From: Methylotenera sp.
Lineage (GTDB): Bacteria; Pseudomonadota; Gammaproteobacteria; Burkholderiales; Methylophilaceae
DNA length: 64,000 nt
Assembly: GCA_030652995.1 (NCBI GenBank)
Contig: JAUSAG010000009.1
Span: 124,001 to 188,000 of the forward strand
Direction of reading: 5' to 3'
Shown one piece after another: positions 2,735 to 39,061 of the stretch. The notes beneath the pieces are model-generated. The model did not search any database and was not told where the DNA came from. It saw nothing but the letters and a program-made list of their open reading frames with translations. Each line of letters opens with the position of its first letter. Position 1 is the stretch's first letter. Position numbers and translations under genes: made by a program.

Positions 2735-3967
2735 TTAAAACCCTTTGCGTGAAAACGTCAGCGTAGCATTAGTACCACCAAAGCCAAAGCTATTGGATAA
2801 TGCCGTTTCAATTTTCACATTTTCAATCGGGTTACGCACAATATTCAAACCTATCGCCGCAGGGTCTAATGTTTCGATGTTAGCTGAAGCAGCAATAAAA
2901 CCGTGCTCCATCATCAGTAAGGTATAAATTGCCTCATTTACGCCCGCGGCACCAAGCGCATGACCAGACAGTGATTTGGTAGAGGCGATTGCGGGATTCT
3001 GATTTAAACCATTTTCACCAAACACCTCACGAATGGCTTCCAACTCTTTTACATCACCAACTGGTGTGCTAGTTCCGTGCGTATTGATGTAGTCAATTGG
3101 GTCAGATATGCCATCCAATGCCAAACGCATACAGCGCACCGCACCTTCGCCACTTGGCGCCACCATGTCATAACCATCTGATGTAGCGCCGTAACCGACC
3201 ACCTCAGCGTATATTTTTGCGCCACGCGCTTTAGCATGCTCGTACTCTTCAAGCACGACAATACCGCCGCCGCCAGAAATCACAAAACCATCACGGTTTG
3301 CATCATAAGTGCGCGACGCTTTATCAGGCGTCTCGTTATATTTGCTGCTCAATGCGCCCATTGCGTCAAACATAAATGACAACGTCCAATGTTCCTCTTC
3401 CGCACCACCTGCAAAAATAATATCTTGCTTGCCTAATTGAATTTGCTCCACGCCCGCGCCAATACAGTGCGCACTGGTAGAACACGCAGAACTGATGCCG
3501 TAATTGATACCTTTAATTTTTGCGCCTGTAGCAAGGCATGCCGACACACCGCTCGCCATCGCTTTTGTGACCATATAAGGTCCTACGCGGCGCACGCCTT
3601 TTTCACGTAGCGTGTCGATGCCTTCTAAAATACTTTCATGTGATGCACCACCCGCGCCTACAATTAAACCTGTACGCACATTGGATACAATTTCTTCAGC
3701 CAGTTGAGAGTCCGCAATAGCTTCTTGCATCGCCAGCCAGGCATAAGCATGACCTTTTGCCATAAAGCGCATTAGCTTGCGGTCTATTAGCTCTTCTACA
3801 TTCAGATTTTTGATAGAACCCGCCACTTGCGAGCGCAAGCCCATTTCAGCGTATTCTGGTTGATAAGTAATCCCTGACTTGCCTGCCTTCAGGCTAGCCA
3901 ACACTTCAGCTTTATTGTTGCCCAAACTGGAAACAATCCCAAACCCCGTAACGACGACACGACGCAT
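2735..3967 (-). CDS. fabB: 3-oxoacyl-ACP synthase I (FabB)
   Basis: A 410-residue beta-ketoacyl-ACP synthase with the thiolase fold. The Cys-His-His triad is visible: SSACSTSAH (Cys near 165), [11 protein letters not shown] (His near 300) and [11 protein letters not shown] (His near 335); the C-terminus has [13 protein letters not shown]. The sequence begins [13 protein letters not shown] as in E. coli FabB. It follows fabA by about 30 bp on the same strand; this fabA-fabB pairing identifies it as the synthase that elongates the cis-3-decenoyl-ACP made by FabA in unsaturated fatty acid synthesis, distinct from the fabF at about 31 kb. It probably forms a two-gene operon with fabA. Confidence 0.92.
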
Positions 3968-3999: not shown

Positions 4000-4515
4000 T
4001 TAAAAATTATCTGTGCGCGTAAATAAACCTACACGCAGATCGCTAGCTACATAAATTTCACGTCCGTCCAGCGTCATGGTGGCATCCGCTAGACCCATCA
4101 CCAATTTACGCATAATTACGCGTTTTAAATCAATGGTATAAGTCGCCATTTTAGCAGTTGGCAATACTTGTCCGGTAAACTTCACTTCACCAGCACCCAG
4201 TGCTCGCCCACGGCCTGGACCACCCATCCAACCTAAATAAAACCCAACCAACTGCCACATCGCATCTAACCCTAAGCAACCTGGCATCACTGGATCACCC
4301 GTAAAGTGACATTCAAAAAACCATAAGTCAGGCCTAATATCCAGCTCAGCGATAATTTGGCCGTTACCATATTTACCACCATCTTCAGTAATAGAAACAA
4401 TGCGGTCAAACATTAACATCGGCGGCAATGGCAATTGCGCATTACCTGGCCCAAACATCTCACCACGACCACATTTGAGTAACTCTTCTTTTGTAAAACT
4501 ATTTTGTTTTTGCAT
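4000..4515 (-). CDS. fabA: 3-hydroxydecanoyl-ACP dehydratase/isomerase (FabA)
   Basis: 171 residues, the usual FabA length. Hot-dog fold with the FabA signature [24 protein letters not shown], containing the active-site His (near 70) and Asp (near 84). FabA dehydrates 3-hydroxydecanoyl-ACP and isomerises the trans-2 product to cis-3, committing the chain to unsaturated fatty acids. It is first in the fabA-fabB operon and divergent from mxaR across a 220-bp intergenic region. The start at 4515 gives the expected N-terminus ([18 protein letters not shown]). FabZ at about 46.8 kb is the general dehydratase, so both are encoded in this window. Confidence 0.95.
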
Positions 4516-4640: not shown

Positions 4641-4666
4641 AGGGGTATACAGATCTGTTTACCCCT
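4641..4666. promoter_or_regulatory. 26-bp near-perfect palindrome upstream of mxaR (candidate operator)
   Basis: Outer arms AGGGGTA and TACCCCT flank a perfect inner palindrome ACAGATCTGT; only one T/T pair in the 26 bp breaks the symmetry. It is not followed by a T-run on either strand, so it does not look like a terminator. Its right half overlaps the predicted -35 box of the mxaR promoter, a position suited to repression or promoter-proximal regulation. The protein that binds is unknown. Confidence 0.7.
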
Positions 4667-4686
4667 GATAAAAAAACGTTTATGAT
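4658..4686 (+). promoter_or_regulatory. Predicted sigma-70 promoter of the mxaRSACKL operon
   Basis: TTTACC (4658-4663), a 17-bp spacer and TATGAT (4681-4686) match the housekeeping consensus well and lie about 50 bp before the mxaR ATG at 4736. The -35 box is inside the right arm of the 26-bp palindrome. Predicted from sequence only. Confidence 0.6.
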
Positions 4687-4735: not shown

Positions 4736-5752
4736 ATGAGTGACCTTCAGCTAACCGATTGGCGCAACCATGCGCTTGCCTTAGAATCAGAAGTCAATAA
4801 AGTCGTGGTAGGCCAACATACGCCGATACGCTTGATTACGACTTCAATTTTCGCACGTGGTCACGTGTTGTTAGAGGGCGACGTTGGCGTAGGTAAAACC
4901 ACCTTGTTGCGTGCCTTCACTCGCGGCATCGGTGGCGGTTATCAACGGATTGAAGGCACTATCGACTTAATGCCTAACGATTTGGTTTACCACACCTATC
5001 TAGGTGAGGATGGTAAACCGCACGTAAGTGCTGGTCCATTACTTATGTCTGGTGAAAATCTATCCGTATTCTTTTTTAACGAAATCAACCGCGCTCGCCC
5101 ACAGGTTCACTCATTATTATTACGTGTAATGGCCGAGCGGAGCCTATCTGCGTTTAATGCAGAACATTACTTCCCGCACATGATTGTGTTTGCTGACCGC
5201 AACCAAGTAGAAAAAGAAGAAACTTTTGAAATCCCGTCTGCGGCACGTGATCGCTTTATGATGGAAATCCCAATTGTCGTTCCAAATGATGATGCCATTA
5301 TGGAAGCCTTGGTATTTGACACCAAGTTCCATAACGTTGACGCGTTAGTGGATACCGTAAAGCCTGATGTACTGCAATTTGATGAACTTAACGGATTTTC
5401 AGGCGTAATTCAAAGCAACATTACAGCCAGTGATACGCTTAAAAAATATGCGCTAAATTTATGGAAAGCAACCAAAGCGCCGCTTGATTACGGTGTAAAA
5501 GTATCAGGCGTTGACATGAACCGCTTAGTACTCGCAGGCGCCAGTCCTCGTGGCATGAGCATGATGTTGCGCGCTGCACGTGTCAATGCTTGGCTGAATA
5601 ATCGTACTGCTGTATTGCCAGATGATATTCATGCGGTATTTCATTCCACCATTGCTCATCGTTTAGTTTTTAGCCCGGTATATGAAATGCGCCGCACAGA
5701 GATTGCGCGCGATATGTTGTCAGGCATTATCAACGCAGTTGCAGCACCTTAG
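4736..5752 (+). CDS. mxaR: MoxR-family AAA+ ATPase MxaR
   Basis: A 338-residue MoxR-type AAA+ ATPase: Walker A EGDVGVGKTT near 48-56, Walker B SVFFFNEINRARPQ near 110-122, and a sensor-1 region around FADRNQ followed by AARDRFMMEIPI. MoxR ATPases act as chaperone-like partners of von Willebrand domain proteins in metal insertion and complex maturation. Followed by a DUF58 protein and two VWA membrane proteins, it corresponds to MxaR of methylotrophs, the first gene of the mxaRSACKL maturation set for methanol dehydrogenase. A good sigma-70-like promoter and a palindrome lie just upstream. The generic label moxR also fits; the operon context supports mxaR. Confidence 0.88.
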   Translation: MSDLQLTDWRNHALALESEVNKVVVGQHTPIRLITTSIFARGHVLLEGDVGVGKTTLLRAFTRGIGGGYQRIEGTIDLMPNDLVYHTYLGEDGKPHVSAGPLLMSGENLSVFFFNEINRARPQVHSLLLRVMAERSLSAFNAEHYFPHMIVFADRNQVEKEETFEIPSAARDRFMMEIPIVVPNDDAIMEALVFDTKFHNVDALVDTVKPDVLQFDELNGFSGVIQSNITASDTLKKYALNLWKATKAPLDYGVKVSGVDMNRLVLAGASPRGMSMMLRAARVNAWLNNRTAVLPDDIHAVFHSTIAHRLVFSPVYEMRRTEIARDMLSGIINAVAAP

Positions 5753-5785: not shown

Positions 5786-5910
5786 TAAAAATCCACTTTT
5801 ATGGGATGAAGTGCTAAGAGGCGCGCAACAAGTGACGCAGACACATTGTTTGAATAGGCAAGAAATGAGCGAGCGCACGACAACGCAACTCGCCCATAAA
5901 ATGGATTTTT
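5786..5910. repeat. Imperfect inverted repeat filling the mxaR-mxaS gap
   Basis: The left arm AAAAATCCACTTTTATGGG (near 5786-5804) is repeated inverted at 5893-5910 as CCCATAAAATGGATTTTT, with one base inserted. The 125-bp unit occupies nearly all of the mxaR-mxaS spacer and ends at the mxaS start codon. Its interior (GGCGCGCAACAAGTGACGC) resembles in style the interior of the element at 18.3 kb. It may be a miniature inverted-repeat element or a structured RNA spacer. The 76-codon ORF overlapping it has no support as a gene. Confidence 0.55.
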
Positions 5911-5911
5911 G

Positions 5912-6772
5912 ATGATAGAAGACATTAAATCTTTTAGTTACCATATAGGCTGGCGTTCTCGCGGACGCCACCCGGGACGGCACGCGAGTACACAGCGTGG
6001 AATGGGCATGGAGTTTCGCGGTCACACCACCCTATTATCATACCCTGACCCACGCCGTATCGATATACGCCAAACCATACGCGACCCAATGGAGCAGGTG
6101 CATGTGCGCCTATTTAATCAAAAAAGTGCGACGCCGGTTTATGTGATTTGCGATTTATCCGGCAGTATGAATTTTGGTGCCAAAAAACGCAAAATCAAAT
6201 TAGCGGCGGAAATTGCAGAGTCAATTGCAAAATCTGCAAGCGAACATCACGACCCATTTGGTTTTATTGGCTTTGATGAAACAGTGCGCGAAGACTGGAT
6301 AAGTACATCCTCATTCAAATCGCATCGGGCGATTGACATGGCTGAATCGCTAAAAGACTTTCACCCAGCACCCGTCAATTGTACTGGCATTACGGAAGTT
6401 TATCGTTATTTGCCACGTGAACGCTCACTGGTATTTTTAATCTCTGACTTTCACATGCCTAACGATTTACTTGAAGACTCACTTTCTAATTTGTTGCGCC
6501 ACCATATTGTGCCGATTGTGTTGTGGGATGCTGCGGAATACAGAAATTTACCTGAATTTGGTTTAACCAACGTCACCGATGCTGAAACAGGACAAATGCG
6601 TACTTTGTTTTTGCGTAAAGAGTTACGTGAAAAAATTATGCAATCTTTTGAAGATAGACGCAATGAAATTTACGAGCTGTTCATGCGCTTTGACATGCCT
6701 CCGTTTTATGTTGAAGGCGAGTTTGATGCAGATAGACTCACAGAGTATTTTCACCAATTTGTAGCGGCTTAA
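5912..6772 (+). CDS. mxaS: MxaS, DUF58/VWA-like protein
   Basis: A 286-residue DUF58-type protein. The von Willebrand-like core starts with VYVICDLSGSMNFGAKKRK, where DLSGS (near 81-85) is the MIDAS metal-binding motif; later come FGFIGFDETV and SLVFLISDFHMPND. No membrane segment or signal peptide is evident, so it is probably cytosolic and the direct partner of the MxaR ATPase. I use the ATG at 5912 rather than the tracked TTG at 5909. The ribosome binding site is weak (GGA about 8 nt upstream) and lies inside the right arm of the inverted repeat, so initiation may depend on RNA structure. Function follows from the operon: methanol dehydrogenase maturation. Confidence 0.85.
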   Translation: MIEDIKSFSYHIGWRSRGRHPGRHASTQRGMGMEFRGHTTLLSYPDPRRIDIRQTIRDPMEQVHVRLFNQKSATPVYVICDLSGSMNFGAKKRKIKLAAEIAESIAKSASEHHDPFGFIGFDETVREDWISTSSFKSHRAIDMAESLKDFHPAPVNCTGITEVYRYLPRERSLVFLISDFHMPNDLLEDSLSNLLRHHIVPIVLWDAAEYRNLPEFGLTNVTDAETGQMRTLFLRKELREKIMQSFEDRRNEIYELFMRFDMPPFYVEGEFDADRLTEYFHQFVAA

Positions 6773-7793: not shown

Positions 7794-8783
7794 ATGGTTT
7801 TTTCACATCCATGGTTACTTTGGTTGTTGCCCCTAGCGATACTGCCGCTGTTATTACAGCGCACACATGCCAAACATTATTCTTGGGTAAATATGCTACC
7901 AGCGGATCCATTGTCCGATCTTGTTGGGCTGCTGTTAAAAGCACTCGCTCTACTCACGCTGCTCTTTATCATCATTGGCTTGAGCGCCCCTCACACTAAA
8001 GAGCAAAGTGTAGAACGCATAGGCGTGGGCGCGCAGATTGCCTTGGTGCTGGATCGTAGCGCCAGTATGGATGACCCATTTTCAGGTAGCACAGATGCCA
8101 CGGGCAATACCACGGTGGGTGAAACCAAATCCGTTGCCGCAGCAAGGCTCATCACCGAGTTTGTAAAGTCACGCCAGCAAGATATGTTTGGCATGATTAC
8201 CTTTAGTAACTCCGCCATGTATGTGTTGCCACTCAGTGAAAATAAAAAAGCCATCATCTCTGCTGTGCAGGCAACCAGTGGCAATGCGCTATTTCAAACC
8301 AATATTGGCAGCGGCTTAACCAGTAGCGCAGGTTTATTCAATAAAATCCCCGATTCAGGTTCGCGCGCGGTAATTCTGGTGTCTGACGGTGCCGGTCGTA
8401 TGGATGCAAACACTCAGCAAAAAATTAAAGACTGGTTTGACCGTTTGCACCTAAGCTTATATTGGATTGTACTGCGCCAGCCAGATGGTTTAAGTATTTT
8501 TGATACCACATACAAACCAGTTGAAGATCAACCATTGCCAGCAGAAATCGAGCTGTACGAATTTTTTAAAACGCTCAAAACACCATTTAAAGCCTATGAG
8601 GCAGAAGACCCAAAGTCTCTGCAATTGGCTATGAACGACATTAACAATCGTGAAAAAAAACCTATCAAGTACTTTGAAAAAATACCAGGTCGAGATTACT
8701 CCAATGTTTGCTTTATCATCGCGGCCATCATGATTAGTTTGCTATTAAGTGTGAAATATTTAGAGGTTAAAACATGGCACTAA
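7794..8783 (+). CDS. mxaC: MxaC, BatA-like VWA membrane protein
   Basis: 329 residues with a BatA-like layout: two N-terminal membrane helices (near 5-22 and 45-63), a von Willebrand A domain with the MIDAS motif DRSASMDD near 87-94, TFSNSA near 145, VILVSDGAGRMD near 200, and a C-terminal helix (VCFIIAAIMISLLLSVKYL). Known MxaC proteins act in maturation of the calcium-containing methanol dehydrogenase; the VWA domain probably faces the periplasm. It overlaps the mxaK start by 10 bp, indicating translational coupling. Confidence 0.85.
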   Translation: MVFSHPWLLWLLPLAILPLLLQRTHAKHYSWVNMLPADPLSDLVGLLLKALALLTLLFIIIGLSAPHTKEQSVERIGVGAQIALVLDRSASMDDPFSGSTDATGNTTVGETKSVAAARLITEFVKSRQQDMFGMITFSNSAMYVLPLSENKKAIISAVQATSGNALFQTNIGSGLTSSAGLFNKIPDSGSRAVILVSDGAGRMDANTQQKIKDWFDRLHLSLYWIVLRQPDGLSIFDTTYKPVEDQPLPAEIELYEFFKTLKTPFKAYEAEDPKSLQLAMNDINNREKKPIKYFEKIPGRDYSNVCFIIAAIMISLLLSVKYLEVKTWH

Positions 8784-9346
8784 ACACAAAAATACGGTTA
8801 TCTATAAACCATTTTCTGACTGTAAAAAGATTAACGGTTTTACTCACGCTCACAGCGATAACTGCATCATTCTTCAGTGCGTATTTTTACAACCGCATCA
8901 ATCAAATTGATGATTTCAATCAAGCGATTAGTGCTGGCAAACCGCCACAAACTGACTTGCAAAGTTTTGAAGCTAAGTTTTCAACGGCGTATTGGCTAGC
9001 TAACAAAGAACGCTACAAAGAAGCTACTTTACTATTTAACAAGGCGCTCAATGGTGCTAATGAGGAGCAAAAGGCCGCCATTCATTATAATTTGGGGAAT
9101 ATTTTCTTTAGGCGCGGATTAGCCATCAGTGGCACTAACATGACGGTGCGTGATGAAGCCGAATATTTGGTACGCCAAGCTAAAACCGCCTATCTACAGT
9201 CACTAAGACTGGATAACTCAAATTGGGGGGCGCGTCACAATCTGGATCGTCTGCTGGGCATGCTACCAGAAACAGCAGTGCCAGGCGCTGGGGAGAGCGA
9301 CTCACCAGGGCTCATTATGGGCAACATCCCTGTTGGCCTGCCATAA
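8774..9346 (+). CDS. mxaK: MxaK, membrane protein with TPR-like region
   Basis: 190 residues: one N-terminal membrane helix (LTVLLTLTAITASFFSAYFY, near 18-37) and a soluble region with tetratricopeptide-like helices (KERYKEATLLFNKALNG, AAIHYNLGNIFFRRG, AYLQSLRLDNSNWGARHNLDRLL). It lies between mxaC and mxaL and resembles BatC/BatE-type TPR partners of VWA membrane proteins. Assignment as MxaK rests mainly on order and architecture. The start overlaps the mxaC end by 10 bp and mxaL follows after 9 bp. Confidence 0.78.
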   Translation: MALNTKIRLSINHFLTVKRLTVLLTLTAITASFFSAYFYNRINQIDDFNQAISAGKPPQTDLQSFEAKFSTAYWLANKERYKEATLLFNKALNGANEEQKAAIHYNLGNIFFRRGLAISGTNMTVRDEAEYLVRQAKTAYLQSLRLDNSNWGARHNLDRLLGMLPETAVPGAGESDSPGLIMGNIPVGLP

Positions 9347-9355
9347 AGAATCATC

Positions 9356-10369
9356 ATGTTAACTTTACACAAATTTTTCAGCCACCTTCGTCATCGCCAC
9401 GACATTACGCTATTGCTAGCCTCACTTTTACTGCTGATCCTCGCTATTTTCAACCCAAAAATACCGGTTAAACGCGACATTTACAGTTACATTTTAGTAG
9501 CTGATATCTCACAAAGCATGAATGTTGTCGATAAAACACTCAACGGAAAACCAGTGTCGCGCGTGGCCTATATGCAAGACATGCTACATAAATTGGTGGG
9601 GGAGCTACCATGTGGCACCAATGTGAGCATGAGCGTATTTGCTGGCGTCAGCGTGGCGGCACTTTACACGCCGATAGAAGTTTGCGAAAACTTTGATGCC
9701 ATTAATGACACCATCGATCATCTTGATTGGCGCACAGCATGGTCTGGCAACAGTCGCATACGGGCGAGCATGACAACCCTTGCAAGAACCATTCGCTCAT
9801 TCCCAGAACCCGCACAAGTGGTGTTTTTTACTGACGGTGAAGAAGCGCCAAAAATCCACGTTTTTAATAAAGAAAATTTAACCGCGTTTCAAGGCGGTGA
9901 AGACTGGTTGCTGGTAGGCATTGGTGATGATAAGGGCGCGCCGATTCCTAAATTTGATGAATTCAACCAATTGATCGGTTATTGGTCCAACGAAAGCTTT
10001 GCCTTGCAGCCTGGCATTGCGCAAATTTCAGAATCCAACATTGGAACACGCAATGACAATGTAGCAGGCGAAACGGGCGATCGTTATTTATCAAAACTGG
10101 ATGAAGAATACTTGAAAGAGTTATCAAAAGAAGTAAATGGCATGTATGTGCGCGGTGATAACCTGCAAAGCATTCTGAGTGCGATGAAAAAGCAAAAGCC
10201 TGCAAGACGTGATAAATCAGGGTTTGAAATTCGCTGGATATTGGCTGGGCTTGCTGGATTTATGTTTATTTTGGCTTACACACCTAAGCACCCGGTGCAG
10301 GAACTAAAAACTCAATGGCGCAATTTTATTAATCGCCGCCGTCGCGTTAAGGAAGCATTGATTAAATAA
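9356..10369 (+). CDS. mxaL: MxaL, VWA membrane protein
   Basis: 337 residues: an N-terminal membrane helix (ITLLLASLLLLILAIF), a von Willebrand domain with MIDAS motif ADISQSMNVVDK near 49-60 and VVFFTDGEEAPK near 155, and a C-terminal helix (WILAGLAGFMFILAY). It is the last gene of the mxaRSACKL set and would act with MxaA, C and K in metal loading of methanol dehydrogenase. No mxaD, E, H or B follows; the next gene is an unrelated ygfX on the opposite strand. Confidence 0.84.
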   Translation: MLTLHKFFSHLRHRHDITLLLASLLLLILAIFNPKIPVKRDIYSYILVADISQSMNVVDKTLNGKPVSRVAYMQDMLHKLVGELPCGTNVSMSVFAGVSVAALYTPIEVCENFDAINDTIDHLDWRTAWSGNSRIRASMTTLARTIRSFPEPAQVVFFTDGEEAPKIHVFNKENLTAFQGGEDWLLVGIGDDKGAPIPKFDEFNQLIGYWSNESFALQPGIAQISESNIGTRNDNVAGETGDRYLSKLDEEYLKELSKEVNGMYVRGDNLQSILSAMKKQKPARRDKSGFEIRWILAGLAGFMFILAYTPKHPVQELKTQWRNFINRRRRVKEALIK

Positions 10370-19534: not shown

Positions 19535-20326
19535 TCAATCTTCTTTTCTAACATCTAATTTATCACGCAAATAATCGCCGCTTAGGTTAATCGCTAAAAT
19601 CAAACTCATCAAACAGCCACCTACAATTAATACATAATGCGGTGCTACCAGCATATAACGCACGGCATCGCGTAGCATTGTGCCCCAAGAGGCATTGGGT
19701 GCCTGTATGCCCAAGCCAAGGAAAGACAAGCTCGCTTCAGCAATCATCACACTGGCTAAGCTATAAGTGGCTTCTACCACTAAAACTGAAGCCAATAACG
19801 GCAGTATATGTCGAAACAGCAAACGCGGAACACTTGCGCCCAGAGATTGGGCTGCCAGTACATGCTGTCGATTGCGTAAACTCATGGTTTGCCCACGGGT
19901 AAGTCGCGCATAGCTCACCCATCCGGTTAAACATAAGGCTAGGATTAAATTAGTTAAACTTGGGCCGAGTACCGCAGCAAATGCAATCGCTAATAAAATA
20001 CCCGGGAAAGCCAAAAATACATCGGTAATTTGCATCAAAACCGCATCCACTTTGCCCCCGTAGAACCCCGCTAACAAACCGACGAACACACCGACACTCA
20101 TCGTAATAACGGTAACAACCAGCGCCACAAAAAAAGACACTTCAACGCCACTTAAAATACGCGCCAACACATCACGGCCTAAGTCATCTGAGCCAAACCA
20201 ATGATTTGCACTCGGATTATTCAAGATAACATTCAAATCAATGGCGTTTGGGTTTAGTTGCAATAAATGCCCTAACAAGACCGCAGCTAACCAGAAAATC
20301 AAAATAGAAGTTGCGAATTTTTTCAT
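19535..20326 (-). CDS. Oligopeptide-type ABC transporter permease (DppC/OppC-like)
   Basis: 263 residues; an inner-membrane permease with a periplasmic loop [33 protein letters not shown], the hallmark of DppC/OppC proteins, and the cytoplasmic EAA-like loop [23 protein letters not shown]. About six membrane helices. It partners the DppB-like permease upstream. The usual ATPase genes (dppD/dppF) are not in the window and must be encoded elsewhere if the transporter works. Given nagZ and the YkuD gene, muropeptide uptake is a reasonable inference. Confidence 0.88.
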
Positions 20327-37642: not shown

Positions 37643-39061
37643 GTGTTCAAAAAAATTCTAATTGCTAATCGCGGTGAAATTGCAGTGCGTATTGTACGCG
37701 CCTGCTCTGAAATGGGCATTAAGTCTGTTGCGATTTATTCAGACGCTGATCGTCAAGCCTTACACGTTAAAAAGGCAGATGAGGCCTATAATATTGGCGC
37801 AGATCCTGTTGCTGGCTATTTAAATGCACATAATATTGTGAATTTAGCAGTCGCTTCTGGTTGCGATGCTTTACACCCTGGCTATGGATTTTTATCTGAG
37901 AATCCAGAATTAGCTGAGATTTGTGAACGTCGTGGCGTTAAATTCATTGGTCCAAATGCGGATGTTATCCGTCAAATGGGTGACAAAATCCAAGCCAGAA
38001 ACGCAATGACTAAAGCAGGCATCCCTTGCACTCCTGGCAGTAATGGTAATTTAACAAACCTAGATGAAGCTGTATCGCTGGCAAAAATAATCGGCTACCC
38101 CGTGATGCTGAAAGCCACCAATGGTGGTGGTGGGCGTGGTATTCGTCGTTGCGATAGCGAAAAAGAGTTATTAAGCAATTATGACCGCGTTATTAGTGAG
38201 GCCAGCAAAGCCTTTGGTAAACCAGAAGTGTTCCTAGAAAAATGCGTGGTGTCACCGCGGCATATAGAAGTACAAATATTGGCTGACTCACAAGGCAACA
38301 CCATTCATCTATTTGAGCGTGACTGTTCAATCCAACGTCGCAATCAAAAGTTAATTGAAATCGCACCGTCACCGCAATTAAGCCAAGCACAGCGCGATTA
38401 TATTGGTGGCTTAGCGGTAAAAGCCGCTAAAGCAGTCGGTTACGAAAATGCTGGAACGGTAGAGTTTTTATTAGACTCCGAAAATACTTTTTATTTTATG
38501 GAGATGAATACACGCCTGCAAGTTGAGCATACTGTGACAGAAACCATTACAGGTATTGATATTGTGCAAGAACAAATCCGTATCGCCAGCAGTTTGCCAT
38601 TGCAATATAAGCAAAAAGATGTGCAGTTTAGAGGGTATGCCATGGAGTTCCGAATCAATGCGGAAGATCCTAAGAATGACTTTTTACCGAGCTTTGGCAA
38701 AATTACTCGTTACTATGCGCCAGGTGGGCCAGGTGTACGGATGGATGCAGCCATTTTTAGCGGTTATGTCATCCCGCCTTATTACGATTCCATGTGTGCC
38801 AAGCTGACGGTTTGGGCGCTTACTTGGGACGGCGTGATTGAGCGCGGTCGCCGTGCATTAGATGATATGTTGATTTACGGCGTAAAAACTACCATTCCGT
38901 ATTATCAAGAGATCTTAAAACACGAAGATTTTAGAAATGCAGAATTTAATACTAGTTTTGTAGAGTCGCACCCAGAATTGGTGAATTATGCAAACGAAAT
39001 ACCGCCAGAGTTGATGGCTGCTGCAATTGCGGCAGCCATTGCGGCGCACGAAGGCATTTAA
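37643..39061 (+). CDS. pycA: Pyruvate carboxylase subunit A (biotin carboxylase)
   Basis: 472 residues from a GTG start. ATP-grasp biotin carboxylase: KKILIANRGEIAVRIVRAC, HPGYGFLSENPELA, the glycine loop KATNGGGGRGIRR, FLEKCV, and FMEMNTRLQVEHTVTE. It is followed directly by an oxaloacetate decarboxylase-alpha-like subunit carrying the biotin domain, the arrangement of two-subunit pyruvate carboxylases, so it probably carboxylates that biotin with bicarbonate and ATP. The alternative, AccC of acetyl-CoA carboxylase, is less likely because accB is not adjacent and the C-terminus has an alanine-rich PycA-like tail. Anaplerotic in methylotrophs. Confidence 0.85.
   Translation: MFKKILIANRGEIAVRIVRACSEMGIKSVAIYSDADRQALHVKKADEAYNIGADPVAGYLNAHNIVNLAVASGCDALHPGYGFLSENPELAEICERRGVKFIGPNADVIRQMGDKIQARNAMTKAGIPCTPGSNGNLTNLDEAVSLAKIIGYPVMLKATNGGGGRGIRRCDSEKELLSNYDRVISEASKAFGKPEVFLEKCVVSPRHIEVQILADSQGNTIHLFERDCSIQRRNQKLIEIAPSPQLSQAQRDYIGGLAVKAAKAVGYENAGTVEFLLDSENTFYFMEMNTRLQVEHTVTETITGIDIVQEQIRIASSLPLQYKQKDVQFRGYAMEFRINAEDPKNDFLPSFGKITRYYAPGGPGVRMDAAIFSGYVIPPYYDSMCAKLTVWALTWDGVIERGRRALDDMLIYGVKTTIPYYQEILKHEDFRNAEFNTSFVESHPELVNYANEIPPELMAAAIAAAIAAHEGI

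Follow-up and report, generated by a model that had tools for sequence, protein, structure and literature searches.

A conserved palindrome over the mxaRSACKL promoter of Methylophilaceae as the predicted operator of an autoregulated TetR-family repressor

The window analysed here is a stretch of 64,000 nucleotides from a Methylotenera sp. (contig JAUSAG010000009.1, positions 124,001 to 188,000). It carries a long, near-perfect palindrome in front of a cluster of genes for the maturation of methanol dehydrogenase (MDH), which raises the question of which protein acts on this site and which genes it controls. The original prediction described a 26-bp dyad with one broken base pair, and this was confirmed: in AGGGGTATACAGATCTGTTTACCCCT, 12 of the 13 pairs match and only T4648/T4659 does not. 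Under a first-order Markov model built on the window, about 0.08 such 26-mers are expected per 64 kb, and two are present. The dyad exceeds the chance level. With up to three mismatches allowed, the full-length dyad occurs at a single place in the whole 2.66-Mb genome. The other near-perfect 26-bp palindrome of the window, ATGGCTGCTGCAATTGCGGCAGCCAT, lies at 39014-39039 and also has 12 of 13 pairs. The coordinates of the features around the dyad are given in Table 1.

Table 1. Features of the mxaR region, in positions of the window
Feature	Position	Strand	Remarks
26-bp dyad AGGGGTATACAGATCTGTTTACCCCT, predicted operator of the mxaRSACKL promoter	4641..4666	.	kept upstream of mxaR in relatives
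Predicted core operator TATAC-n6-GTWTA, TATACAGATCTGTTTA	4646..4661	.	common to the promoters of tetR and the PQQ-dehydrogenase, MxaD-like and molybdopterin oxidoreductase genes
-35 box TTTACC of the mxaR promoter	4658..4663	+	inside the right arm of the dyad; position kept in relatives
-10 box TATGAT	4681..4686	+	TAnnnT at the same distance in 95% of 77 relatives
mxaR, MoxR-type AAA ATPase, first gene of the operon	4736..5752	+	AAA_3 match; ATG at 4736
mxaS, DUF58 protein	5909..6772	+	DUF58 match
mxaA	6792..7790	+	named by gene order; without Pfam or NCBIfam match
mxaC, VWA-domain protein	7794..8783	+	VWA match
mxaK	8774..9346	+	named by gene order; weak TPR/BatC-like match
mxaL, VWA-domain protein	9356..10369	+	VWA match
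fabA, divergent neighbour	4000..4515	-	rejected as target of the dyad
fabB, divergent neighbour beside fabA	2735-3967

The operon was assigned to mxaRSACKL by its succession of AAA_3, DUF58, an unmatched protein, VWA, a weak TPR match and VWA. Multiple mxaRSACKL clusters have been reported for Methylophilaceae in passages of an earlier paper (PMC4109929), and those passages name no regulator of mxaRSACKL.

The upstream regions of mxaR were compared across Methylophilaceae, including Methylotenera, Methylophilus, Methylovorus and Methylobacillus. The pattern TATAC-n6-GTWTA was found within 260 bp upstream of mxaR at 76 of 91 loci, whereas shuffled sequences gave 0.1 on average and never more than 2. 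Conservation in relatives had been set beforehand as a test, and its outcome supports the proposal that the dyad is a candidate operator placing the mxaRSACKL promoter under dedicated control. The conservation delimits a functional core of 16-18 bp, TATACAGATCTGTTTA. The AGGGG/CCCCT arms outside this core vary; they are absent at the other genes with the core described below, and at mxaR they persist in many genera but not throughout the family. One guess, by analogy with QacR, is that two dimers might bind at mxaR. The core site is also carried by a second mxaRS cluster in Methylobacillus (G010) and Methylovorus (G047). It should be noted that other second mxaRS clusters (L402-L406; 66% identity) lie about 1 kb from a divergently oriented TetR gene of 41% identity; the operators of these clusters at L402-L406 were not found.

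The predicted overlap of the dyad with a -35 box followed by a 17-bp spacer and TATGAT was likewise borne out. TAnnnT begins exactly 35 bases past the start of the core in 95% of 77 sites (background median 0), and this conserved -10 element at a fixed distance supports the mxaR promoter. The -35 hexamer of the relatives is mostly TTTACA, TATACA, TTTACC or TATACT. At 41 of the 76 sites the broken base pair of the dyad persists (GTTTA in place of GTATA). Since it coincides with the -35 box, it plausibly reflects a trade-off with the needs of the promoter.

When 30 genomes were scanned for the core, a second recurrent site, TATACTAAYCTGTATA, emerged; in many of them it lies directly upstream of one gene of the TetR family. 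The exact core is present within 200 bp upstream of this tetR in 65 of 67 genomes (shuffled mean 0.15), and an autoregulatory dyad at the gene's own promoter is typical, though not universal, of TetR-family repressors. The position of the core before tetR varies by group (-24, -34, -47, -68, -76 or about -160), and for this reason the site is not simply inherited flanking sequence. The tetR of the genome studied here is located away from mxaR, at G000:C2:13263-13823 (L149:4025-4588), and encodes 187 amino acids. In 19 genomes including this one (TATACAGATTAGTATAAT; L149:4001-4027 = G000:C2:13239-13265), the site merges into TATAAT and an ATG follows about 6 nt later. As TATAAT lies inside the operator and the ATG is so near, TATAAT is probably the -10 box and the tetR mRNA would be leaderless.

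The encoded protein contains the TetR_N helix-turn-helix domain (Pfam PF00440, E 2.6e-13, residues 8-54), and its AlphaFold model (pLDDT 84.8) has nine helices in the all-helical two-domain fold of TetR proteins. The best matches of this model in the PDB are all TetR proteins, the QacR-DNA complex (1jt0) among them. The closest solved structure is SCO4454 of Streptomyces coelicolor (PDB 3g7r; sequence E 1.5e-18), which gives the top TM of 0.84; however, this regulator comes from a different phylum and is only 25% identical, and its PDB title names no function. The protein stayed below the cut-off of every NCBIfam equivalog, including the named subfamilies DicD, AcuR, RutR, BetI, AcrR and CurR, the best score being that of DicD with 81.6 bits against a cut-off of 240.

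The same core precedes several other genes. It was found before a PQQ-dependent dehydrogenase with a lipoprotein-like N-terminus (24 of 30), before MxaD-like SRPBCC genes (20 of 30), many of which are divergent from tetR and some of which have two tandem sites, and before a molybdopterin oxidoreductase (16 of 22). In the genome studied, the dehydrogenase lies at G000:C3:18414-20225 with its site at 20268, and the oxidoreductase of 710 amino acids at G000:C32:20153-22282 with TATAC-n6-GTATA at G000:C32:22362-22377 (L150). In Methylobacillus and Methylovorus, this site also precedes the gene of a small membrane protein of about 130 amino acids without a family match (L162:4344-4754, L165:3572-3961).

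In whole genomes, TATAC-n6-GTATA by itself occurs no more often than the reversed control pattern, and the argument for the operator therefore rests on location and conservation. Pattern searches of the genome studied gave four occurrences of the exact GTATA form, three of which are those at tetR, the PQQ dehydrogenase and the molybdopterin oxidoreductase. The fourth (C7:15571), 5' of a queA-like ORF in a short intergenic region, does not have the conserved interior and was judged to be a chance match. The search at xoxF and mxaF that the original prediction had proposed gave no site at any of 25 XoxF/MxaF-type MDH genes in 7 genomes, and we rejected the link to the MDH structural genes. The predicted target is better seen as a small TetR regulon, centred on a PQQ dehydrogenase and on maturation genes, than as MDH itself. 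The suggestion of lanthanide or growth-rate control found no support in this analysis.

The co-occurrence of the site with tetR was examined in the 90 genomes whose mxaR upstream region could be used, and a protein of 66% identity or more was counted as a TetR ortholog. The mxaR site, exact or with one mismatch, was present in 74 of the 75 genomes with the ortholog and in 3 of the 15 without a close one. Two of these three encode a TetR of 48% identity, and the third is an 80% complete draft. Two TetR-bearing genomes deviate at mxaR: the site of G052 has one mismatch, and G011, with a sister TetR near mxaR, has no site. Joint losses of tetR and the mxaR site were seen within genera (G020 and G049 in g20; G131 and G146 in g1), and in G020 the dehydrogenase site has decayed to TATACCAATCTGTACA. 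A tree-controlled test of independent pairs found only 4 supported pairs, too few for significance.

A sister TetR of 44-52% identity is encoded at or near mxaR in five genomes (G005, G011, G026, G031, G039). In this clade, the recognition segment AGTTKMTLYK is changed to AE[IV]AKVTLYK, and upstream of mxaR TATAC-n6-GTATA is replaced by a sequence of the TACTTACTAGTTAGTATG or CATACTGGTTAGTATG type, as determined by sequence inspection for the first four genomes and by a motif scan for G039. The sister TetR with the changed helix and the changed operator ATACTnnCTRGTnAGTATG is represented by the loci L411, L112, L408 and L419. Of the indirect evidence for binding of the mxaR operator by this TetR family, this joint shift in helix and operator is the strongest. 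The dyad could instead be bound by another regulator, with tetR merely one member of its regulon, as binding by TetR is predicted and tetR genes can be under the control of other proteins. However, tetR is the only regulator gene seen recurrently with the site, its co-occurrence with the site is near-complete, and in the sister clade encoded beside mxaR both helix and operator have shifted. We consider control by another regulator very improbable.

The losses of tetR also bear on the divergent neighbours of mxaR. In gammaproteobacteria, fabA is controlled by FabR and FadR, and in most genomes fabA is the divergent neighbour of mxaR, in one genus only about 75 bp from the site. The dyad might accordingly be a FabR/FadR-like site governing fabA-fabB, its proximity to mxaR being incidental. 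Yet at loci that lack fabA or have it 460-980 bp from mxaR, the spacing between the site and the -10 box of mxaR stays fixed, and the shared sites sit at tetR, PQQ dehydrogenase and MxaD-like genes. Besides, four genomes without the TetR (G013, G015, G016, G020) keep fabA beside mxaR and have lost the site. We rejected control of fabA-fabB, which is scarcely credible on this evidence.

The dyad is very probably the operator of an autoregulated TetR-family repressor that would occlude the promoters of mxaRSACKL, its own gene, the PQQ dehydrogenase, the MxaD-like gene and, in part of the family, the molybdopterin oxidoreductase. For this reading, the site and its conservation, the promoter geometry, the sites before tetR and the other genes, the co-occurrence of tetR and the parallel change in the sister clade were all computed. 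We infer that a TetR dimer would physically bind TATAC-n6-GTWTA, cover the -35 box of mxaR and deny RNA polymerase access to the mxaRSACKL promoter. This protein would also repress its own gene, the PQQ-dependent dehydrogenase and the MxaD-like SRPBCC gene, likewise the molybdopterin oxidoreductase in a part of the family, and a presumed small inducer would release it from the operator.

The core element covered by the site differs between promoters: it is the -35 box at mxaR, TATAAT at tetR (19 genomes), and the spacer together with the -10 box, behind a TTGGCA-like box, at the dehydrogenase of the nearest relatives. Blocking of RNA polymerase would fit each of these elements, and repression with autoregulation was for this reason preferred over activation. 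One point against it is the centre of the mxaR dyad, which lies about 40 bp before the inferred start, constantly so in 95% of relatives, near -40 where some activators also bind. The same TetR could thus activate mxaR, a dimer near -40 touching RNA polymerase, and the imperfect -35 hexamers TTTACC and TATACA would agree with this. Nevertheless, a site over the -10 box or the spacer, as at tetR and the PQQ dehydrogenase, is an unusual seat for an activator, and the majority of TetR proteins are repressors. Activation is unlikely.

A repressor of this type resembles the TetR repressors QacR, NemR and AcrR in its TetR_N domain, its all-helical fold and a near-palindromic AT-rich operator over core promoter elements. 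However, it is only about 20-21% identical to them, and its predicted targets are dehydrogenase and maturation genes, whereas theirs are genes for efflux or electrophile detoxification. In alphaproteobacteria, the two-component regulators MxcQE and MxbDM control methanol oxidation by acting on mxaF and related genes. They share with the system described here the methanol oxidation genes of methylotrophs as targets, but the TetR protein would be a one-component regulator, and the XoxF/MxaF genes do not carry its site. The original prediction knew of no described regulator with this site; we too found none in the open-access literature, nor any TetR protein described as regulating mxa, xox or PQQ-dehydrogenase genes.

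A specific candidate regulator, an operator and a regulon can now be named for an MDH-maturation cluster of Methylophilaceae, which are major methanol users. With its recognition helix and operator altered in parallel, the sister clade offers a ready test of specificity. The cluster is tied to an uncharacterised PQQ dehydrogenase and a molybdopterin oxidoreductase and not to xoxF or mxaF, which suggests a testable client and substrate. It is conceivable, though we hold this only tentatively and rather doubt it, that the regulon forms an inducible oxidation system of its own, in which TetR senses a compound that the lipoprotein-like PQQ dehydrogenase uses as substrate or cofactor, and that the mxaRSACKL genes by fabA and the MxaD-like protein mainly mature this dehydrogenase and not XoxF/MxaF. 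If this were true, mxaRSACKL clusters would gain a client other than methanol dehydrogenase.
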